26,733 nt of DNA, from positions 1 to 26,733 of IMG/VR virus record IMGVR_UViG_3300042453_001938; one strand, written 5' to 3'. The notes below the pieces were generated by a model. The model saw only the letters and a program-made list of their open reading frames with translations, was not told the DNA's origin and ran no database searches. The stretch comes from a virus. Positions within the stretch are counted from its first letter, which is position 1, and each line of letters starts with the position of its first letter. Shown piece after piece: positions 13,252-25,995 of this stretch. The position numbers and the translations under genes are program-made.

Positions 13252-13436
13252 TAAAGATTACCCGCGAAATAACGTGCGACTTTTGTAGAGAAGTGTTTTT
13301 TAAAGACGATTGGACGTTAGTCTTTAACGACATTATGCCAACCTCGCCACAAGAAAACCGAATTGGGCGGAATTACGCTTGCGATGATTGTGTTGCTGCC
13401 GCTAAAGAAGCCGCCCTTGAGAGAGGCGCCGTGTGA
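13248..13436 (+). CDS. Small zinc-ribbon-like protein
   Basis: 62 aa from the GTG at 13248, overlapping the upstream stop. ITCDFCREVFF and NYACDDCVAAAKEAAL give two CxxC pairs about 34 residues apart, a layout typical of a small zinc ribbon. Its partner or target is unknown. Its TGA overlaps the GTG start of the DNA polymerase gene (GTGA), so it should be made in step with the polymerase and may assist it. Confidence 0.7.
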   Translation: MIKITREITCDFCREVFFKDDWTLVFNDIMPTSPQENRIGRNYACDDCVAAAKEAALERGAV

Positions 13437-15379
13437 GTGTGCTGTGGGTGGACTTCGAGACGCGCAGCCGCTGCGATCTAAAGCGCGCGGGCGTCTACAA
13501 CTACGCGCAGGACTTGAGCACCGAGGTGCTCTGCATGTCCTACGCGTTCGACGACGAGCCCGTCGTGACGTGGCTCCCAAAGCATCCGTTTCCTGAGCGT
13601 GTGGCAGCGCACACTGGCGAGATCCGCGCGCACAACGCCGCGTTCGAGCGTCTTATCTTTTGGTATGTGCTGCAGATCAACTTCAAGCTCGAGCAGTTCT
13701 ACTGCACGGCGACGCAAGCGCGCGCCAACTGCCTGCCTGGCTCGCTCGAGGATATAGGCCGGGCGCTCGGCGCCAGCATGAAGAAGGATCACCGAGGCGC
13801 TGCGCTCATCCGGCAGCTGTCCATCGCGCGCCACGACGGCACGTTCAACAACGACCCGGAGCTGATGGCCGAGATGGTCGCCTACTGCGAGCAGGACGTG
13901 CGCGCCATGCGCAGCGTGAGTGCCGCGATGCGTGACCTATCCGAGCGAGAGCTTGCCGACTACCACGTCAACGAGCGCATTAACGATCGCGGCGTCATGG
14001 TGGACGTGCCGCTCTGCAAAGCCGCCGTGTCCTACGCGCAGGCAGAGCTTGAGGATATAGAGAAGCTCGTCGTCGAGATCACAGACGGCGAAATCCAAAG
14101 CGTGCGCAGTCCGCGCATGCGCGAGTGGGTCGCCGAGCGATTAGGGCCAGAGGCTCGCAAGCTCATGACCGTGTATAAAGACGGCGAGGCGAAGGCGTCC
14201 ATCGACAAGGCGGTGCGCGCTAATTTGCTTGCCATCGAAGATCCTGAACAAGTCCCGCCCGCTGTGGCGGACGTGATCCAATGCGCCGACGATTTGTGGG
14301 CCTCGTCGGTCGCTAAGTTTGACAGGCTCGCCAACCTAGCCGACGTCGAGGATCACCGTGTCAGAGGAGCATTTGTATTTGCTGGTGGAAGTGCCACGGG
14401 GCGCGCTTCAAGCTACGGCGCCCAAGTTCATAACTTCACGCGTCGCACTCTTGGAAACGCTGATGCCGCCCGCCATTCAATGGTCAGAGGTCACAGTATC
14501 GTTCCAACCTACGGACGACGGGTTACAGATGTTCTTAAAGGAATGCTGCGACCCGCTCTTATCCCCGCCCGAGGTCACGTTTTCATCGTGGCCGACTGGG
14601 CAGCGATAGAGGCCCGCGCCACTCCTTGGTTGTCGAACGACCCGCAGGCCGATACCGTGCTGCAAGTCTTCCGCGATGGCGGCGACATATACAAGCGTGA
14701 AGCAGCCGGCATTTACCACTGTACGCCCGAACAGGTGACGGACGAGCAGCGCCAGATCGGCAAGGTTGCCATCCTGTCGCTTGGATTCGCTGGCGGCGTC
14801 GGTGCGTTCGCCGCGATGGGCCGAGGCTACGGCATCACGTTGCATGAATCAGACGCGCAGCGCATCGTCGACGCATGGCGCCGCGCGAATTCGTGGGCAA
14901 TACGCTACTGGCAGTCGCTCGAGGCCGCCTACACTCGCGCCATGCGCAACCCTGGCCGCGAGTTCTCCGCTGGCCGGGTGACGTATCTTTTTGATCGCCA
15001 TCACTTGTGGTACGCGCTACCGTCTGGGCGTATTCTTTGTTACCCCTTTGCACGGCTTGAGGATGACGGCGTGTCCTATTTGAAGGCCGCATGGAAGCCT
15101 GCTGCTGATGCAAAGGAATGGCCGCGTGCGCGGCTATGGCGAGGGCTCGCATGCGAGAACATCACGCAGGCGACCGCTAATGACTTGTTACGGCATGCGC
15201 TCGCGCAGCTCGAGCACGTCGTCCTGCACGTCCACGACGAGATTGTCATGGAAGTGCCCGAGGCCGAGGCCGAGCACTATGCGCGTGTGCTGCGCGAGAC
15301 GATGTGTACAGCGCCCGAGTGGGCGCAGGGGTTTCCGCTCAAGGCCGAAGTGAAGGTCATGCAGCGGTACGGTAAATAA
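13433..15379 (+). CDS. Family A DNA polymerase with 3'-5' exonuclease
   Basis: 648 aa from a GTG. The proofreading exonuclease is intact: D7 and E9 in VDFETRS, HNAAFE at 67-72 and D155 in YCEQDVRAM. Polymerase motif A is VADWAAIEARATPWLS (D388). Motif B is DEQRQIGKVAILSLGFAGG (R440, K444). Motif C is HVHDEIVMEVPE (D602, E603). The size and lack of a 5' nuclease domain match compact phage PolA enzymes. It copies phage DNA with the primase-helicase encoded next. An apparent alternate frame at 14358-14609 is a shadow, because the polymerase frame stays continuous through it (VRGAFVFAGG, GRASSYGAQVHNF). A stem-loop follows the stop. Confidence 0.96.
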   Translation: MSVLWVDFETRSRCDLKRAGVYNYAQDLSTEVLCMSYAFDDEPVVTWLPKHPFPERVAAHTGEIRAHNAAFERLIFWYVLQINFKLEQFYCTATQARANCLPGSLEDIGRALGASMKKDHRGAALIRQLSIARHDGTFNNDPELMAEMVAYCEQDVRAMRSVSAAMRDLSERELADYHVNERINDRGVMVDVPLCKAAVSYAQAELEDIEKLVVEITDGEIQSVRSPRMREWVAERLGPEARKLMTVYKDGEAKASIDKAVRANLLAIEDPEQVPPAVADVIQCADDLWASSVAKFDRLANLADVEDHRVRGAFVFAGGSATGRASSYGAQVHNFTRRTLGNADAARHSMVRGHSIVPTYGRRVTDVLKGMLRPALIPARGHVFIVADWAAIEARATPWLSNDPQADTVLQVFRDGGDIYKREAAGIYHCTPEQVTDEQRQIGKVAILSLGFAGGVGAFAAMGRGYGITLHESDAQRIVDAWRRANSWAIRYWQSLEAAYTRAMRNPGREFSAGRVTYLFDRHHLWYALPSGRILCYPFARLEDDGVSYLKAAWKPAADAKEWPRARLWRGLACENITQATANDLLRHALAQLEHVVLHVHDEIVMEVPEAEAEHYARVLRETMCTAPEWAQGFPLKAEVKVMQRYGK

Positions 15380-15428: not shown

Positions 15429-17729
15429 ATGCAGGAGTTCATAGACTATCTAGCACAAGCCGCCCCAGAAGGCGAGACAATTCTTCTGGTGCGTCAAAAG
15501 CCCCGTCTCACCGACGGCGTGCAGCAGTACCACCAGGACGGCACGGCTAAGTACACATGGCCTGCCTGCCTGCCCGATAAGTACCGATCGAATCCGCCGA
15601 AGGCGTGGTACGCCAACACGGCGTCGTTCATCATCGAGCGCTTCCAACAGGGCAAGATCAGCGCGAGCAGCGCGTGCTGCAAACACGTCGCGTTCATGGT
15701 GCTCGATGACATTGGCACCAAGTCCAAGATCCCGCCGCTCGAGCCGACATGGAAGATCGAAACCAGCCCCGGCAATTACCAGTGGGGCTACACGTTCGAC
15801 TACGACAACCAGCCAACCAAGGAAGATTTCTCTGCGGCCATCTTCGCTATCGCCGCAGCGGGCTACACCGATGGCGGCGCCATCAACCCGGTGCGCAACT
15901 TCCGCGTGCCGGGGTCGATCAATCTCAAGCCCGGCCGCGACAACTTCGCTGCCGTGCTCGTTGACTTCCACCCGCTGCGCCAGTTCACCCTGCAGCAGAT
16001 TTGCGCCGCGCTTGGCGTCACACCGGCGCCTGCCGATACCGCCTCACATCAGGCGATTAACATCGAGGACGACGGCAACGACAGCGTGCTGCGCTGGCTC
16101 GCCGAGCAACAGCTTGTCCTGAATCCTCCTAACACGACTGGCTGGGCGGGCGTCGTCTGCCCGAACCACGCCGAGCACAGCGACAACAACCCCGAGGGGC
16201 GCTATCACCCGGTTCACCGCGCGTTCGATTGCTTCCATGAGCACTGTGGCGACTGGACGAGCGAGCGCTTCTTACGTTGGGTCGAGGAGCAAGGCGGCCC
16301 CAAGACGGGCTACGGCCTGCGCGACGACTTACTCGCCGCGACCATGACGACGGCGCTCTCAAAGATCACACCGACCGAGGAGTTCCCCGACGCGGCGGCC
16401 GAGACTATTGCTGAAGTGCGTCGGCGTGAGGTCGGGCGCGTCACCAAGGCCGAGTGGTACGAGCGTTTTGCCTATCTGCAAACGGATGACGCCTACTTTG
16501 ACATGCTTGAACGCCGTGAAATATCGCGTAGCACTTTTAACGCGCTTTTCCGTCATGTTTCCTGCAAGTCCGTTCGCACCAATCGCATCGTCGAGGCGTC
16601 CGTCTGTTACGACGAGAACCGCCAAGAGAAGGGCGCGCACTCTCTGATCGGCGTCACCTACGCCGCCGGCGAGGATATTCTCGTCTCGCGTGCGGGCGAC
16701 GTCTACGGCAACCGTTGGCGCAACGCGCGCCCGCAGGGGCGCTCTGGCGACGTGTCGCGCTGGCTCGAGCACGCCGAGCGCATGATCCCCGATGATCGCG
16801 AGCGCGCGCATGTGCTCGCCGTCATGGCGCACAAAGTCCAGCACCCGAATATCAAAATCAACCACGCCGTCTTGCACGCCGGTAAACCTGGCTCCGGTAA
16901 GGACACCTTGTGGGCGCCGTTCTTATGGGCCGTTGGTGGGCCTATGAACGTGAACATCAGCGTCGTGCGCAATGAGGAATTAAATTCCCAATGGGGCTAC
17001 GCGCTCGAGTCCGAGGTGATGGTCATCAACGAGCTGCGACAAGCCGAGGCCAAAGATCGCCGGGCGCTCGAGAATCAGCTCAAGCCCGTCATTGCCGCTC
17101 CGCCAGAGCTTCTGCCTGTCAACCGTAAGGGGCTGCATCCGTACGATGCCTTGAACCGCATATTTGTCCTCGCGTTCTCCAACGAACGCGCGGCTATTTC
17201 GCTGCCCTCTGACGATCGCCGTTGGTTCGTCACTTGGAGCGAGGCCGACAGACTGCCAGAAGAAAAGGCGCAGGAATTGTGGCACTGGTACAAGTCCGGC
17301 GGGTTTGAACAAATTTCCCGTTGGCTTTTCTCCTATGACGTTTCCGCTTTCAACCCCGGTGCCAGCCCGATAATGACAGAGGCCAAGGCCATTATGATTG
17401 ACGCCGGCATGTCGACGGCCGAGTCGTACCTTGTCGAGATGCTGCGCGGCCGCGTCGGCGAGTTCTCGCGCGGCGTGATCGGCTCGCCGTTTCACGTCGT
17501 GCTCGATCGCGTGGCGGGCTCGATGCCGCCGGGCGTCAAGGCGCCACAATCGGCGCTGTTTCACGCGCTGCGCGAGGCTGGATGGGTCGATAAAGGGCGC
17601 GTCGCGTCGGGTGACTATCCGACGAAAAAGCACCTATTCTGCGCGCCTGATATGGACAGCCGTAGCAAATCGGAGCTGCGCCGGCTGGTGGAAGTCCAGC
17701 CGCCGGCGTCACTCTCCGTCGTCAAATAA
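15429..17729 (+). CDS. Primase-helicase: archaeo-eukaryotic-type primase, zinc finger, SF3-like helicase
   Basis: 766 aa with AAGGAG 8 bp before the ATG. The N-terminal domain (about 50-185) has primase-polymerase features: VAFMVLDDIGTKS (D93, D94), QWGYTFDYD and NFRVPGSINLKPG. A CPNH...CFHEHC cluster (residues 244-273) resembles a zinc finger of the primase CHC type. The C-terminal ATPase has Walker A GKPGSGKDT at 485-493 and Walker B EVMVINELRQ (E535). It continues with FVLAFSNERAAISLPSDDRRWF, as in DUF5906-type phage helicases. It would unwind DNA and make primers for the polymerase encoded upstream. No DnaB-type helicase or loader is present in the window. The 3' end overlaps the convergent minus operon by about 20 bp. 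Confidence 0.9.
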   Translation: MQEFIDYLAQAAPEGETILLVRQKPRLTDGVQQYHQDGTAKYTWPACLPDKYRSNPPKAWYANTASFIIERFQQGKISASSACCKHVAFMVLDDIGTKSKIPPLEPTWKIETSPGNYQWGYTFDYDNQPTKEDFSAAIFAIAAAGYTDGGAINPVRNFRVPGSINLKPGRDNFAAVLVDFHPLRQFTLQQICAALGVTPAPADTASHQAINIEDDGNDSVLRWLAEQQLVLNPPNTTGWAGVVCPNHAEHSDNNPEGRYHPVHRAFDCFHEHCGDWTSERFLRWVEEQGGPKTGYGLRDDLLAATMTTALSKITPTEEFPDAAAETIAEVRRREVGRVTKAEWYERFAYLQTDDAYFDMLERREISRSTFNALFRHVSCKSVRTNRIVEASVCYDENRQEKGAHSLIGVTYAAGEDILVSRAGDVYGNRWRNARPQGRSGDVSRWLEHAERMIPDDRERAHVLAVMAHKVQHPNIKINHAVLHAGKPGSGKDTLWAPFLWAVGGPMNVNISVVRNEELNSQWGYALESEVMVINELRQAEAKDRRALENQLKPVIAAPPELLPVNRKGLHPYDALNRIFVLAFSNERAAISLPSDDRRWFVTWSEADRLPEEKAQELWHWYKSGGFEQISRWLFSYDVSAFNPGASPIMTEAKAIMIDAGMSTAESYLVEMLRGRVGEFSRGVIGSPFHVVLDRVAGSMPPGVKAPQSALFHALREAGWVDKGRVASGDYPTKKHLFCAPDMDSRSKSELRRLVEVQPPASLSVVK

Positions 17730-18880: not shown

Positions 18881-19657
18881 TCAAGCGGCCGCGTCGACGT
18901 CTGCTGGCGTCGGCGCTGGGGTGTCGGCGTGCGCTGCAGCGAGCGCGTCCTCGAGCGCTCCGGCGCCGATCTCGCCGCGCATGGGCATGACGACGGCGAC
19001 GGCGTCCGGCTGGCCGTCGGTAATGATCGCGGGCGACGTGCCGCGCGTATGTATGCGCACCGCATGCTGGCCGGCGTGCTTTTTCTGTTTATTGCGCAGG
19101 ATGGCGAACGCGTCGCACGCGTCGGCGACATACTGCCAATTTGTACATGACAGCTCGAGCGCGCCCAGCTGATCGGCCGCCGGCGTGACGCGGCGCCATT
19201 GTGGGAACTGCCCATCGAGCGGCCGGAAGCCGACAGCGCCGCCGTTGGGTACAGCGATCGTGCCTTCTGGCGCGCGGATAATGTGCACGTCTGCGCGCGT
19301 CGCGTCGAGCTCGCGTACCCAGCGCAGGGTGACGGCGACGTCGACGTCGCCTAGGCGCTTGCCGCGCTGGTACTCGCCGCTGTAGAGCTTAAGCGCGGCG
19401 TCGATCGCGTCGTTCGGAATGATGACCCCAGCGCGCAGCTCTGGCGGCATAACGGCGCGATCGTACGCTCGAGCGTGCACGATACCCGGCGCCGAGATCA
19501 CCAGCATGCGGTGGCCGTCAGTGGCGACGACCTTTCCGGCCGTCACGTCGAGATAGACGCCGTTCAAGTAGGAGCGAATATCGCCTTCAGCCGTATGCGT
19601 GCGCGCAGCGCGCAGGGTAGCCAGCGAAACGGTCAGATTCAGTTGCAGAGTGCTCAT
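18881..19657 (-). CDS. DNA polymerase sliding clamp, DnaN/beta-like
   Basis: 258 aa from the ATG at 19657, which has AGGA 9 bp upstream (19667-19670). A longer frame to 19708 is less likely. Residues 28-50 (RSYLNGVYLDVTAGKVVATDGHR) match the bacterial beta-clamp motif 'LNGV..........VATDGHR'. A second clamp-like segment is GFRPLDGQFPQWRRVTP (about 160-176). The usual bacterial protein has about 370 residues, so this is a shortened phage version. The tail is Ala/Pro/Asp-rich. It should encircle DNA and tether the polymerase. No clamp-loader gene is seen in the window, so host loader proteins may be used. Confidence 0.85.
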   Translation of the reverse strand: MSTLQLNLTVSLATLRAARTHTAEGDIRSYLNGVYLDVTAGKVVATDGHRMLVISAPGIVHARAYDRAVMPPELRAGVIIPNDAIDAALKLYSGEYQRGKRLGDVDVAVTLRWVRELDATRADVHIIRAPEGTIAVPNGGAVGFRPLDGQFPQWRRVTPAADQLGALELSCTNWQYVADACDAFAILRNKQKKHAGQHAVRIHTRGTSPAIITDGQPDAVAVVMPMRGEIGAGALEDALAAAHADTPAPTPADVDAAA

Positions 19658-19680
19658 GATGTAGTGTCCTCGAGTGTGGT

Positions 19681-19827
19681 TTAGTTGCGAATGTGATCGA
19701 TGACGCACGCCAGCGCCACAACGGCGGTGGCGGCGATCAGTAGCGACAGCGCGCCGAGATAGACGGCGGCTAGGAACGCGCCGCAGCCGGCGACGGCGAG
19801 CGCGTTCGAGATTTGGCGGGCGCTCAT
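19681..19827 (-). CDS. Small TM protein of the minus operon
   Basis: 48 aa from the ATG at 19827, overlapping the stop of the upstream gene (ATGA). It starts MSARQISNALAVAGCGAFL and has one or two hydrophobic helices (GAFLAAVYLGALSLLIAATAVVALACVI), ending DHIRN. It is probably an inner-membrane peptide. Function is unknown. Confidence 0.6.
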   Translation of the reverse strand: MSARQISNALAVAGCGAFLAAVYLGALSLLIAATAVVALACVIDHIRN

Positions 19828-20450: not shown

Positions 20451-20489
20451 GCTGGACGTTTGGGTCATGGCGCTGGACGTTTGGGTCAT
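20451..20489 (+). repeat. Tandem 18-bp direct repeat, 21-bp period
   Basis: GCTGGACGTTTGGGTCAT occurs perfectly at 20451-20468 and at 20472-20489, with a 3-bp spacer. The 21-bp period is two helical turns, so both copies face the same side of DNA, as expected for cooperative protein binding. Each copy ends with the 9-mer TTGGGTCAT of the wider array. Confidence 0.9.
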
Positions 20490-20536
20490 CGAGCGAGCGC
20501 GTGCGGCGGCGGCGATCGGCGGCGAGCGTGAAATTG

Positions 20537-20554
20537 TTGGGTCATTTGGGTCGC
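20537..20554 (+). repeat. 9-mer array, two forward units
   Basis: TTGGGTCAT at 20537-20545 is exact and is followed directly by TTGGGTCGC at 20546-20554, with seven of nine matches. A degenerate TTGGGT follows near 20557. Confidence 0.8.
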
Positions 20555-20578
20555 CGTTGGGTTGTTTGCGTGGGCTGG

Positions 20579-20587
20579 ATGACCCAA
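20579..20587 (-). repeat. 9-mer array, single reversed unit
   Basis: ATGACCCAA, an exact reverse-complement unit, is preceded by GCTGG as in the 18-bp repeat. It can pair with the forward units at 20537-20545. Confidence 0.75.
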
Positions 20588-20622
20588 CGCGGCGAGCTTG
20601 AAAACATGGGGCGCGGGGTGCG

Positions 20623-20641
20623 TTTGGGTCATTTGGGTCAT
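20623..20641 (+). repeat. 9-mer array, two exact forward units
   Basis: Two contiguous exact TTGGGTCAT units (20624-20632 and 20633-20641), preceded by T, border the left edge of the AT-rich centre. Confidence 0.9.
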
Positions 20642-20673
20642 GTTTTTTATCTAATCTTATAAGTCTAGAAATA

Positions 20674-20689
20674 CTGTATATCCGTACAG
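20674..20689. promoter_or_regulatory. LexA (SOS) box-like dyad
   Basis: CTGTATATCCGTACAG fits CTGT-N8-ACAG, the LexA operator of gamma- and betaproteobacteria, with the usual TA bases and AT core on the left side. It overlaps a perfect 12-bp palindrome, GTACAGCTGTAC (20684-20695). By chance such a motif is not very rare in 27 kb, but this one falls in the AT-rich centre of the only large intergenic region. Confidence 0.45.
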
Positions 20690-20733
20690 CTGTACGATAG
20701 AGCGGCGCATGCTGAAGAGCCCGCGCGGACTTT

Positions 20734-20766
20734 TTTGGGCATGCCCAAATGACCTAAATGACCTAA
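20734..20766 (-). repeat. 16-bp palindrome fused to variant reversed 9-mers
   Basis: TTTGGGCATGCCCAAA (20734-20749) is a perfect palindrome. It runs into ATGACCTAA twice (20749-20757, 20758-20766), each one mismatch from ATGACCCAA. Confidence 0.85.
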
Positions 20767-20802
20767 CGCCCCCATGTCGCCATGACTGCGCCCCCTATGC
20801 TG

Positions 20803-20847
20803 TTGGGTCATTTGGGCAATCGGCACGCCATGACCCAAATGACCCAA
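20803..20847. repeat. Inverted pair of double 9-mers (14-bp stem)
   Basis: Forward units at 20803-20820 (second degenerate) face two exact reversed units at 20830-20847. TTGGGTCATTTGGG (20803-20816) pairs perfectly with 20834-20847 around a 17-nt loop, so a cruciform or RNA hairpin is possible. Confidence 0.85.
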
Positions 20848-20896
20848 AGTCCGACGGCCGCATGCCCGCGCTGGCGCGCGCACCGGCTTGCATGCC

Positions 20897-20914
20897 ATGA
20901 CCCAAATGACCCAA
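20897..20914 (-). repeat. 9-mer array, two exact reversed units
   Basis: Two contiguous exact ATGACCCAA units (20897-20905, 20906-20914) form the right edge of the array. They are preceded by GCATGCC, as in the array element near 20740. Confidence 0.9.
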
Positions 20915-20940: not shown

Positions 20941-21103
20941 CGAGCTCGAGCGCTGGCAGGCTGGCGCTGCAGGCTAGGGGTGGCGGGCTCCCGGCTGGGC
21001 GCTGCGGGCTGGCGGCCGCTGGCCGCTGGCATGGGGGGGGTAGGGCCCGAGGCCACCCGGTCAAAATTACGGGGAGCGTTCGCAAAAAATTTTTTATTTT
21101 TTA
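20941..21103 (+). other. GC block, G8 run and A6T6 tract before terminase genes: packaging-site candidate
   Basis: Repeated GCTGG/GGCTGG words fill 20951-21030. Eight G residues (21033-21040) precede TAGGGCCCGAGGCC, and CGGGGAGCGTTCGC leads into AAAAAATTTTTTATTTTTT (21084-21102). A GC-rich core beside intrinsically bent A-tracts just upstream of terS is the usual setting of cos or pac sites. The T-rich end could also act as a terminator. No cleavage site can be read directly. Confidence 0.4.
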
Positions 21104-21149: not shown

Positions 21150-21602
21150 ATGTCCTTAAAGTCTTTGCCATTCGCGCCGCGCGAGGTGAAAGCAACCGAG
21201 AAGACGCTGCAGGCGATTTACGACGCCGCCGCGCTCGGGTTGAAAGGTGATACGTTGGCGTTGGCGGCAGGATTGCTGCCGATCGAGTACCGCCGTTTGT
21301 GCCAGCTAGATCCGATGGCCCAACTAGCCGAAGAGAAGGGACGCGCCGATGGACACGTCGAAGCCGCCACGCAACTCCGCGAAGCCGCGCGTCAAGGGGA
21401 CGCTAAAGCTGCCCTATCCATACTCACGCATGTGCACGGCTGGGTGGCGAAGCAACAGGTGCAAGTCGACATACAGCAGCAGATCAGCATCACGGCAGCA
21501 CTGCGAGAGGCGGAATCGCGCGTCATTGCTGGTCGCTTGGCACAAGATGAACGGGCACCACTAACTATCGACCAGCCGACGCATGCAAACGCCGATCTAT
21601 AG
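21150..21602 (+). CDS. Terminase small subunit candidate
   Basis: 150 aa, directly upstream of and overlapping the large terminase gene by 20 bp. Residues 15-50 (ATEKTLQAIYDAAALGLKGDTLALAAGLLPIEYRRL) look like an N-terminal helix-turn-helix for recognising packaging DNA. The segment REAARQGDAKAALSILTHVHGWVAKQQV resembles the helical core of small terminases, where 'GD.KAA..IL...' recurs. The C-terminal part is polar. It would form a ring that selects phage DNA and loads the large subunit. Recognition rests on pattern and position. No Shine-Dalgarno is obvious before the ATG. Confidence 0.8.
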   Translation: MSLKSLPFAPREVKATEKTLQAIYDAAALGLKGDTLALAAGLLPIEYRRLCQLDPMAQLAEEKGRADGHVEAATQLREAARQGDAKAALSILTHVHGWVAKQQVQVDIQQQISITAALREAESRVIAGRLAQDERAPLTIDQPTHANADL

Positions 21603-23106
21603 CGCTGACCAAGAAGAGCTGCTCATGAGCAAGCTCTGGTCGCCTGCGATTAAGGATGACCCCGAGGCGTTCGTGCTGTTTGTCTTTCCGTGGGGCCAGG
21701 CCGGCACGCCGCTCGAGCACTTCAGCGGCCCGCGTAAATGGCAGCGCAAAGTGCTACGCAAATTTGCAGAGCATATAAAGGCCAACAAGACCCGTGAGGC
21801 GTACGAAGTGCTGCGCATGGCGACAGCCTCCGGGCGCGGTATCGGCAAGTCGGCGTTGGTCAGTTGGATAACGCTCTGGATGTTATCCACAAGGATAGGC
21901 TCAACAACCATCATCTCGGCTAACAGCGAGGCGCAGCTGCGCTCGGTGACGTGGGCGGAAATTACCAAGTGGCTCGCGCTGCTGATCAATAGCCACTGGT
22001 TCGAAGTGTCCGCCACGCGGCTGATGCCGGCCAAGTGGATCGCGGAGCTGGTCGAGCGCGATCTGAAGAAAGGCACGCGCTATTGGTCGGTCGAAGGGCG
22101 GCTGTGGAGCGAGGAGAACCCGGACGCGTACGCGGGCGTGCACAACCACGACGGCGTGCTCGTCATCTTCGACGAAGCCTCCGGTATACCTGACCCGATC
22201 TGGGCGGTGACGGCGGGGTTCTTCACGGAGAACACACCGCACCGATTCTGGTGCGCGTTTAGTAACCCGCGCCGTAACGAGGGGTACTTCTTTGAGTGCT
22301 TCAACGCCAAGCGGGCGTTCTGGCAGACAGAGAGCATCGACGCGCGCGAGGTGGAGGACACCGACAAGATGGTCTACCAGCAGATCATCGACGAGTACGG
22401 CGCGGATAGCCCCGAGGCGCGCATCGAGGTGTATGGACAGTTTCCGCTTGAGGGCGACGATCAGTTCATCGGCCCGGCGGTCGTCGAGGCGGCGTGCAAC
22501 CGGCAGCGGTGGAAGGATGAAACGGCGCCGGTGGTGCTCGGGGTCGACCCTGCGCGATCGGGCTCCGACAGCACCGTGATCGTCGCGCGGCAAGGGCGGG
22601 ACATTATTGCCATCAAGCGCTACAAGGGCGAGGACACCATGACGACGGTCGGCCGCGTGATCGACGCGATCGAGGAGTTCAACCCGGTGTTTACCGTCAT
22701 CGACGAAGGCGGCCTAGGGTACGGCATATTGGATCGGCTCAAGGAGCAGCGCTACAAGGTGCGCGGGGTGAACTTTGGGTGGAAGGCGAAGAACCCGGTG
22801 ATGTGGGGCAACAAGCGCGCGGAGCTCTGGGGCAACATGCGCGAGTGGCTGCGCGAGGGGCACATACCGAACGATCGGCAGCTAAAGACAGACCTGACTG
22901 GGCCGACGCAGAAGCCCAACTCATCGGGCACTATCTTCTTAGAAGGGAAGAAAGAGATGAAGGCGCGGGGGCTTGCAAGCCCTGACGCGGCTGACGCTCT
23001 GGCGGTGACATTTGCATTTCCGCTCGCACAGCGCGAATATAGAGAGAAAGCTAGGCGCATTGCGGTCAATGAAGGCGGCAGCGTCGGTAGCTGGATGGGG
23101 GCGTAA
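21583..23106 (+). CDS. Terminase large subunit
   Basis: 507 aa. The N-terminal ATPase has Walker A ATASGRGIGKSAL (GRGIGKS at 84-90, like the GRGSGKS of Sf6-type enzymes) and Walker B VLVIFDEAS (D197, E198). A possible coupling motif is FSNP near 226-229. The RNase H-like nuclease domain shows VLGVDPARSGSDST (D322), VIDEGGLGYG (D374) and SPDAADALAV (D468/D471). It pumps DNA into the procapsid and cuts it. The start at 21583 keeps the family-like N-terminus YSADQEELL and PWGQ.GTPLE, and ATG 21625 would remove it. The stop overlaps the next start (TAATG). Confidence 0.95.
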   Translation: MQTPIYSADQEELLMSKLWSPAIKDDPEAFVLFVFPWGQAGTPLEHFSGPRKWQRKVLRKFAEHIKANKTREAYEVLRMATASGRGIGKSALVSWITLWMLSTRIGSTTIISANSEAQLRSVTWAEITKWLALLINSHWFEVSATRLMPAKWIAELVERDLKKGTRYWSVEGRLWSEENPDAYAGVHNHDGVLVIFDEASGIPDPIWAVTAGFFTENTPHRFWCAFSNPRRNEGYFFECFNAKRAFWQTESIDAREVEDTDKMVYQQIIDEYGADSPEARIEVYGQFPLEGDDQFIGPAVVEAACNRQRWKDETAPVVLGVDPARSGSDSTVIVARQGRDIIAIKRYKGEDTMTTVGRVIDAIEEFNPVFTVIDEGGLGYGILDRLKEQRYKVRGVNFGWKAKNPVMWGNKRAELWGNMREWLREGHIPNDRQLKTDLTGPTQKPNSSGTIFLEGKKEMKARGLASPDAADALAVTFAFPLAQREYREKARRIAVNEGGSVGSWMGA

Positions 23107-23859: not shown

Positions 23860-25995
23860 ATGGCTCAAGACCCGACAGGCATGAAAGGCGCGGCGCAAGT
23901 CGCCAACAGTCCGCAATCGCGTCGCACTAAAGACGCTGCTGACGTGCTGGCGCGCATGCGCGACCGTCTGGAACAGTCGTTGTCGGCGTACAGTGACTCG
24001 AGAGACAGCGAGCTGGACGATCTACGCTTCATGGCAGGCTCGCCCGACAACCGTTGGCAGTGGCCACAAGAGGTGCTCGCCACACGCGGTGCGGTGCAAG
24101 GTCAGACGATCAACGCGCGTCCGTGCTTGACGATCAACAAGCTGCCGCAGCATGTGCGTCAGGTCACAAACGATCAGCGTCAGAACCGCCCGTCGGGTAA
24201 GGTCATCCCGGTCGACGATCAGGCGGATATTGAGGTTGCCGAGGTACTAAACGGTGTGGTGCGCCACATCGAGTACATGTCAGATGCGGACGTCGTGTAC
24301 GACACGGCGTGCGACAACCAAGTGACCTACGGCGAAGGGTATTTTCGCATTTTGACGGAATACTGCGACGAGACGAGCTTCGATCAAGACCTTCGCCTGC
24401 AGCGCATCCGTAATTCTTTTAGCGTCTACATGGATCCGCACATTCAAGACCCGTGCGGATCGGACGCTGAGTATTGCTTCATCACTGAAGACATGCCGAA
24501 AGACGAGTTTGCGCGTTTGTTTCCCGACGCCGAACCGATTTCGTCTATCTCAACGCGCGGCGTAGGCGACGAGCAGCTCTCGCAGTGGATTTTGGAAGAC
24601 TCGGTGCGTATCGCGGAGTATTTCTACGCGGTTTACGACAAAGCCACGCTGCATTTATACCCCAACAACCGAACTGCCTACGCTAACTCACCGGAAGCGC
24701 GGCAAATGGAGATGATGGGAGTGCGCCCGCTGCGCATCCGTGAGGTCGAGATCCGCAAAATTAAGTGGATGAAGACCAACGGCTACGAAATTCTTGAAGA
24801 ACAAGACTGGCCGGGCCGTTGGATTCCGGTCATTCGCGTCATCGGCAACGAATTTGAGGTCGACGGACGCATTTACATCTCGGGTTTGGTCAGAAATGCC
24901 AAAGATGCCCAGCGAATGTACAACTACTGGGTGTCGCAAGAGGCTGAAATGCTGGCGCTGGCGCCAAAAGCGCCGTTTATTGGCTACGGCGGTCAGTTTG
25001 AAGGCTACGAGCACCAGTGGAAGACCGCCAACACCACAAATTGGCCGTATTTGGAGGTCAATCCCGACGTCACCGACGGTCAAGGCGCCGTTTTGCCGCT
25101 GCCGCAGCGCGCGCAGCCGCCGTTGGCTCAAACGGGGCTCATTCAGGCCAAAATGGGCGCCTCGGACGACATTAAATCGACCACGGGGTATTACGATTCT
25201 AGCCTTGGAGCGACGTCAAACGAGCGCTCCGGGCGGGCCATCTTGGCGCGTGAACGGCAAGGCGACACAGGTTCATATCACTACGTTGACAACTTAGCTC
25301 GCGCTATTCGCTACGGGACGCGCCAACTTATCGACTTGATCCCGAAGATCTACGACACCCAGCGCATCGCGCGCATCATTGGCATCGACGGCGAGACGTC
25401 GACAGCGCGGATTGACCCGACGCAGGAAGAGGCCGTACGCCAGGTCGTCAACGAAGCGGGTATTGTGATCGAGAAGATCTACAACCCGTCGGTCGGTAAG
25501 TACGACGTCGCGGTCACGACGGGCCCGTCGTACCTGACCAAGCGCCAGGAAGCGATGGACGCCATGTCGCAGATCCTGCAGGCCAACCCTGAGCTGTGGA
25601 ACGTGGCCGGCGATCTGTTCGTCAAGAACATGGACTGGCCGGGCGCTCAAGAGATTGCCAAGCGCTTGCAGAAGACGATCGAGCCGCGCATCCTCGAGGA
25701 TGAAGAGGATCCAGCGCTGCAGGCCGTCAAGATGGAGAACGACGCGCTCAAGCAACAGATGCAAGAAATGCGCGTGATGCTCGATAGCGTGCAGAAGTCC
25801 ATCGACGAGCGTGAGGTACGCGTCAAAGAGTACGACGCGGAGACTAAACGCATCAGCACCGTCCAAGCGGGCATGACGCCCGAACAGATACAGGACATTG
25901 TCATGGGCACGATTAGCGGCATGATGACGTCCGGCGATCTTGTAGCGCCCGTTTCACGTGAAACCGCTATGCCGATGGAGTTACCGCCGCAATGA
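23860..25995 (+). CDS. Portal protein, P22-type
   Basis: 711 aa, close to the 725 aa of P22 gp1. Family-like segments include DELDDLRFMAGSPDNRWQW, NARPCLTINKLPQHVRQVTNDQRQNRP and VIPVDDQADIEVAEVLNGVVRHIEY. Others are YDTACDNQVTYGEGYFRI, YNYWVSQEAEMLALAPKAPFIG and TSNERSGRAILARERQGD. The end is a helical barrel-like region (about 600-665). The protein forms the dodecameric ring through which DNA enters and leaves the head and on which terminase docks. The stop overlaps the next start (ATGA). Codons for residues 698-702 spell the parS-like palindrome described separately. Confidence 0.93.
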   Translation: MAQDPTGMKGAAQVANSPQSRRTKDAADVLARMRDRLEQSLSAYSDSRDSELDDLRFMAGSPDNRWQWPQEVLATRGAVQGQTINARPCLTINKLPQHVRQVTNDQRQNRPSGKVIPVDDQADIEVAEVLNGVVRHIEYMSDADVVYDTACDNQVTYGEGYFRILTEYCDETSFDQDLRLQRIRNSFSVYMDPHIQDPCGSDAEYCFITEDMPKDEFARLFPDAEPISSISTRGVGDEQLSQWILEDSVRIAEYFYAVYDKATLHLYPNNRTAYANSPEARQMEMMGVRPLRIREVEIRKIKWMKTNGYEILEEQDWPGRWIPVIRVIGNEFEVDGRIYISGLVRNAKDAQRMYNYWVSQEAEMLALAPKAPFIGYGGQFEGYEHQWKTANTTNWPYLEVNPDVTDGQGAVLPLPQRAQPPLAQTGLIQAKMGASDDIKSTTGYYDSSLGATSNERSGRAILARERQGDTGSYHYVDNLARAIRYGTRQLIDLIPKIYDTQRIARIIGIDGETSTARIDPTQEEAVRQVVNEAGIVIEKIYNPSVGKYDVAVTTGPSYLTKRQEAMDAMSQILQANPELWNVAGDLFVKNMDWPGAQEIAKRLQKTIEPRILEDEEDPALQAVKMENDALKQQMQEMRVMLDSVQKSIDEREVRVKEYDAETKRISTVQAGMTPEQIQDIVMGTISGMMTSGDLVAPVSRETAMPMELPPQ
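25951..25964. other. Exact parS-core palindrome (ParB-binding-like site)
   Basis: GTTTCACGTGAAAC matches the 14-bp core of bacterial chromosomal parS sites (TGTTNCACGTGAAACA) with no mismatch. It encodes V-S-R-E-T near the portal C-terminus. An exact match to this 14-mer is unexpected by chance in a window of this size, although coding constraint makes it less surprising. No parA or parB gene is visible here. Confidence 0.6.

Follow-up and report, generated by a model that had tools for sequence, protein, structure and literature searches.

The alpha protein of P4 unites a primase, a superfamily 3 (SF3) helicase and a C-terminal winged helix, with which it binds the repeats of its origin, unwinds the DNA and primes synthesis, as outlined in a passage of PMC4234260 that cites Ziegelin & Lanka 1995 and Yeo et al. 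2002. Here, we describe a locus with comparable parts in the IMG/VR record IMGVR_UViG_3300042453_001938, a podophage contig of which the full 26,733 bases (hereafter the window) include P22-type portal and terminase genes. Upstream of terS, the terminase small subunit gene, an array of 9-bp repeats occupies positions 20460-20914. From comparative sequence evidence, we propose that this array is very probably the replication origin of the phage, with iterons that would be read by the phage's own primase/SF3-helicase. This candidate initiator (15429-17729, + strand, 766 amino acids) may resemble P4 alpha as one protein chain that joins a putative primase domain to an SF3 helicase part and a predicted winged helix at the C-terminus. 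P4, however, is a satellite, whereas the window is a podophage genome, and the primase of P4 alpha is of the bacterial Toprim type (PMC4234260), whereas the Pfam search with the window protein gave a weak, sub-threshold RepB_primase match and no match to the Toprim family. The P4 alpha chain was not retrieved by a PDB sequence search with the initiator.

A second precedent is the Rep (PriRep)-ori system of Staphylococcus aureus pathogenicity islands (SaPIs) and phage-inducible chromosomal islands (PICIs), which shares with the window the general layout of iteron sets flanking an AT-rich region. There is also a structural likeness. An AlphaFold2 model of initiator residues 400-766 (mean predicted local distance difference test score, pLDDT, of 78) ends in a winged helix, and its Foldseek neighbours include the SaPI PriRep1-dsDNA structure (7pds), the SaPI5 primase-helicase (7ola), D5-type helicases and the C-terminus of the NrS-1 polymerase. 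Among solved structures, the helicase part comes closest to the NrS-1 phage primase-polymerase (6k9c, 6k9e, 6lrb), which sequence searches retrieve as well, with approximately 16% identity over the structural match; we found no description of an iteron array for NrS-1, the genome of which was not scanned. The SF3 part corresponds to Pfam PF19263 (DUF5906; residues 485-598, 37.8 bits against a curated cut-off of 27.6), and the N-terminal primase domain is tentatively assigned from the weak RepB_primase match together with PHROG primase names.

The closest annotated genomes are those of two uncultivated phages, DSL-LC05 (OR003940, proposed 'Luchaoviridae', PMC10611076) and ctNMl277 (MW202483), whose TerL proteins are 68% identical to that of the window. 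Both lack the window unit TTGGGTCAT and carry other repeats at the equivalent place, with the motifs TGACCCACTGGGTCA and GTTTACATAAAC. The initiator is shared by ctNMl277 (52%), which likewise has its repeat array upstream of terS; in DSL-LC05, we found homologues of neither the window initiator nor the window PolA.

In the window, TTGGGTCAT occurs in 11 exact copies, all of them within 20460-20914, with + copies starting at 20460, 20481, 20537, 20624, 20633 and 20803, and - copies at 20579, 20830, 20839, 20897 and 20906. Two further copies with one mismatch (TTAGGTCAT) lie on the - strand at 20749 and 20758. The exact copies had been listed, and the two imperfect ones mentioned, by the sequence-only reading, an earlier interpretation made from the letters of the window, and all were recovered here. 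With up to one mismatch allowed, the window holds 15 matches against 3.4 expected (maximum of nine across 100 shuffles), of which only two, at 19422 and 21315, fall outside the array. The copies face inward, as had been noted earlier: five of the six exact copies on the left are on the + strand, and four of the five on the right are on the - strand. The outer left arm (20460-20545, +) consists of the iterons at 20460-20468, 20481-20489 and 20537-20545, the last of which is directly followed by a degenerate copy, TTGGGTCGC (20546-20554). A lone reversed iteron (20579-20587, -) separates it from the inner left tandem pair TTGGGTCATTTGGGTCAT (20624-20641, +), which is better conserved than any other part of the core. 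On the other side, the inner right tandem pair (20749-20766, -) is degenerate in the window phage (two copies of ATGACCTAA) and exact in most relatives (ATGACCCAAATGACCCAA); it is followed by a forward pair composed of TTGGGTCAT and TTGGGCAAT (20803-20820, +) and by two tandem pairs on the - strand, at 20830-20847 and, outermost, at 20897-20914. Contiguous copies thus form 18-bp double sites, and the short open reading frames encoding MTQMTQ or LGHLGH are by-products of the 9-bp unit; the earlier reading was right on both counts. Its AT-rich centre, drawn from 20642 to 20733, holds for the first approximately 50 bp (20642-20691, 72% AT), which we regard as a candidate DNA unwinding element, and not for the remainder to 20733, which is 40% AT. 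This stretch contains the palindrome CTGTATATCCGTACAG (20674-20689), matching the LexA consensus CTGT-N8-ACAG. No Rfam match was found within the window.

The same arrangement recurs widely. The 18-mer TTGGGTCATTTGGGTCAT is present in at least 119 IMG/VR stretches, and wherever a terS homologue is present (approximately 92 loci, in which TerS identity falls as low as 54%) the array lies within approximately 1 kb upstream of it, a positive answer to the earlier question of whether the unit always sits near terminase genes. Single-copy matches to the 18-mer in AT-rich contigs without terS (e.g. L037, L043 and L055) were treated as unrelated. The core in relatives comprises a forward tandem pair, a centre of 76-119 bp and a reverse tandem pair, and the inward orientation is strong: summed over 79 loci with the same motif, the left arm has 201 + and 16 - copies, and the right arm 34 + and 396 - copies. 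AT content averages 73% in the 50 bp that follow the left arm and 45% across the loci. The two iteron sets flank this AT-rich region, as in PICIs and SaPIs. Outside the array, six long contigs hold single stray copies of the motif at most; a dispersed host repeat, which the earlier reading had named as a refutation of its interpretation, does not describe an array that each phage contig carries at a single place. That the array marks a recognisable physical end of the genome was rejected, as the contigs that end near terS do so at different positions. The nucleotide search of the array region against phage records gave no match, and a literature search with the 9-mer in both orientations returned, among the top results, only primer and oligonucleotide noise.

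More distant relatives keep an array upstream of terS with a different 9-mer. Among 80 relatives gathered by a scan with the primase/helicase, many carry such arrays; examples of the 9-mers are GTGGACAAT, GTTGGCTAT, GTGGGCAAT, GTAGGCAAT, GTTTACAT, TTGGGCAAT or GTGGGTCAT. Most motifs align in register to the consensus [GTA]T[GAT][GA][GAT][TC][CAT][AG]T, and variants are mixed within some arrays. In one locus (L013), a TTGGGTCAT array and then GTGGACCAT-type repeats occupy positions -400 to -180 from terS, possibly the remnant of a recombined origin. The palindrome in the centre changes as well. A LexA-like CTGT-N8-ACAG palindrome is found in 27 loci, and in most of the others different palindromes stand in its place, of the AAGGGTATACCC type in 30 loci; AAGGGTATACCCTT, TTTCAnnnnGTGAAA or GTATACAGTTACTGTATGC-type sequences are among those that replace CTGTATATCCGTACAG. 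The pattern would suit an operator of variable specificity lying within the putative origin.

The replacement of the motif at a constant place allowed us to ask which protein changes with it. Conserved in the group are terS, terL, the primase/helicase, PolA, SSB and nucleases; conservation does not extend to any gene left of the array. As a statistic, we used the partial Spearman correlation between motif distance and protein distance, with TerL distance controlled. The highest values, up to 0.59, were obtained for residues approximately 420-740 of the primase-helicase, whereas the primase half of the same protein (residues 1-285) gave 0.02-0.24, PolA mostly approximately 0.1 (maximum 0.21) and SSB approximately 0.1. 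Part of the motif correlation is attributable to linkage, since its value drops as one moves along TerL or approaches the primase N-terminus. The best-correlating segment is nevertheless at least 2.7 kb from the array, yet it outperforms TerS, which is encoded a few hundred bases away. These comparisons single out the VirE-like primase/SF3-helicase as the candidate initiator.

The covariation peaks in the predicted wing and can be followed to single residues. When 2958 alignment columns from eight proteins are ranked for motif base 1, the top position is taken by residue 728 of the primase/helicase: Arg728 goes with G1, and Gly, Ser, Ala or Lys at this position with T1 or A1. This rule holds in 92 of the 93 loci that make up the first data set (41 with Arg728 and G1, 51 with a non-Arg residue and T1 or A1) and for 49 of the 50 distinct wing sequences (Fisher p 3e-13, a value that ignores kinship). 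Residue 728 (codon 17610-17612), and residue 726, which covaries with motif base 5, both fall in the predicted wing: the winged helix is modelled as helices 688-696 and 707-716, strand 720-725, loop 726-733 and strand 734-738, and the strand-wing-strand hairpin (residues 720-738) is encoded at 17586-17642 on the + strand. The rule was also applied to an out-of-sample set of 132 contigs obtained with two other queries and without overlap with the earlier ones, 95 of which had a callable base. It is obeyed by 93 of these, comprising 85 Arg-G loci and eight with a non-Arg residue and T or A; the eight are the informative part, because most loci are Arg-G. The open reading frames of L309 and L249 in this set are, by sequence, probably not the initiator, and L309 was kept in the count as an exception. 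At residue 726 in the out-of-sample loci, Lys accompanies GGAC in 35 of the 36 GGAC loci and GG[TC] in seven, and a residue other than Lys accompanies GG[TC] in 53.

Close relatives illustrate the same pairing. L162 and L163 (Lys728, TTGGGCAAT) form a near-minimal pair with L164, L165 and L170 (Arg728, GTGGGCAAT), and L178 and L179, which are 89% identical across the gene, combine Ala726/Gln731 with a GTTGGCTAT array and Lys726/Asp731 with a GTGGACAAT array, respectively. On trees of three protein segments, the trait changes coincide in 3/4, 3/3 and 3/3 supported independent pairs, with none in the opposite direction. Six loci (L182, L196, L201, L205, L183 and L215) carry a second array, of the palindrome GTTAGTGnnCACTAAC at a spacing of approximately 30 bp, between the iteron array and terS. 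For the first four of these, the initial motif calls were this palindrome and were dropped when masking it revealed the iterons, which are of the GTGGAC or GTGGGC type; base 1 is G in all four, matching the prediction from the wing.

The mechanism that we propose, in which iteron binding by the initiator, melting and origin activity are inferred, follows the analogy with P4 alpha (PMC4234260) and the PICI/SaPI Rep proteins (PMC6092414, PMC7581432). The C-terminal winged helix of the primase/SF3-helicase would bind the 9-bp iterons, and the inward-facing arms would load SF3 helicase rings on either side of the AT-rich stretch 20642-20691. This stretch would melt, the rings would unwind outwards, and the same protein would prime synthesis for extension by the phage PolA. 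The earlier suggestion of an origin with iterons around an unwinding element gains strong, though indirect, support and, through the covariation of wing and motif, a named candidate initiator.

Several observations weigh against an origin read in this way. The array is approximately 2.7 kb from the stop codon of the initiator gene, with other open reading frames in between, whereas PICI origins lie directly beside rep (3' of it). TerS and the start of TerL correlate moderately with the motif (0.3-0.4), as expected from linkage. The exception to the rule in the first data set, L006, combines Arg728 with a TTGGGTCAT (T1) array, and is a possible recombinant or assembly chimera. Supported independent trait changes are few (3-5), and with so few pairs the sign tests alone are without significance. 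The wings of L206, L209, L223 and L224 are nearly alike and their motif bases 3 and 6-8 differ; the wing therefore does not set every base. GC skew, proposed earlier as a check, showed no origin-like switch around the array in 14 long contigs, a result that in small phage genomes carries little weight either way.

The crr of P4 is a copy-control or incompatibility element, and the primase-helicase might likewise bind the array for copy control or autoregulation while replication starts elsewhere. Such a role would be backed by the identical covariation evidence and would suit a site distant from the initiator gene. We consider it unlikely, as the array is the sole motif cluster in the long contigs checked and has an AT-rich stretch and opposed arms of its own. 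Somewhat less likely still is a terminase recognition site (pac/cosB), at which TerS would bind repeats beside its own gene and start packaging. The constant place immediately before terS, which is kept when other genes differ, speaks for it, as do the different repeat arrays beside terS in DSL-LC05 and ctNMl277 and the above-mentioned correlation of TerS distance with motif distance. The specificity does not follow TerS, though: for motif base 1, the best TerS column reaches 0.41, compared with 0.84 for the primase wing, and the apparent recognition-helix region of TerS varies inside the group sharing one motif. True contig ends near terS are spread from approximately -330 to -1040 without a single preferred base, and a better candidate for the packaging site lies in the block at 21031-21103, in which a G-rich segment is followed by T-runs (consensus GGGGnggGGGtAGGGCC...CGnAggGntCgcnAACAAttTTTTTT). 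This block, usually approximately 100 bp upstream of terS, is kept in 135 of 170 regions independently of the iteron motif, and may be a packaging (cos/pac) site or a terS leader. That the array is instead a transcriptional operator, lying between the genes that run leftward and the packaging operon that runs rightward and serving as the target of a phage repressor or activator, is highly improbable despite its divergent intergenic location and the changing palindrome in its AT-rich centre, since the lack of conserved genes to its left leaves no conserved repressor candidate, the covariation points to the primase-helicase, and the palindrome is a likelier operator than the iterons. Because this palindrome sits inside the AT-rich centre, the region may have an operator role in addition.

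The interpretation of the array as an origin read by the primase/SF3-helicase has several consequences. Each component is known. Judging from the searched literature, the novel points are that a widespread phage group has an origin layout like that of PICIs, its position beside terS, the repeatedly switched motif and the readable wing-to-base code. A general layout described as unique to PICIs, in which an AT-rich region is flanked by iteron sets, is suggested for phage genomes too, and a large group of uncultivated podophages gains a predicted origin and a named candidate reader protein. More tentatively, and with the odds in our view somewhat against it, these phages might represent a series, arisen in nature, of origin-initiator specificities that exclude one another, in which all of the approximately ten dispersed iterons and the wing change together repeatedly; close relatives would then be unable to use each other's origin. 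Such switching could be driven by escape from satellites or plasmids with a stolen origin, from defence systems, or from competition between co-infecting phages. If true, the code (G1 from Arg728, GGAC from Lys726) would predict origin specificity from the initiator sequence alone. The many pairs of motif and wing are a data set on the evolution of origin specificity and on base recognition by the winged helices of SF3 initiators, and the code is directly testable with one protein and two oligonucleotides.

The array lies in a divergent intergenic region. To its right, the constant neighbour terS (21150-21602, +) was assigned from its position before terL and from homology within the phage group, with no match in PHROG and Pfam searches, and is followed by terL, the terminase large subunit gene (21583-23106, +), and the P22-type portal gene (23860-25995). 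To the left lie the genes for PolA (13433-15379) and the initiator, as well as exonuclease and SNF2 helicase genes. The host is possibly a Burkholderiales bacterium, a weak inference drawn from the fact that the only relatives in genome collections sit in one Rhodoferax metagenome-assembled genome. A 275-amino-acid protein encoded at 18881-19708 (-) matches DNA_pol3_beta_2 (sliding clamp) weakly, and its PHROG match carries the name RusA-like resolvase; it is possibly a phage clamp.
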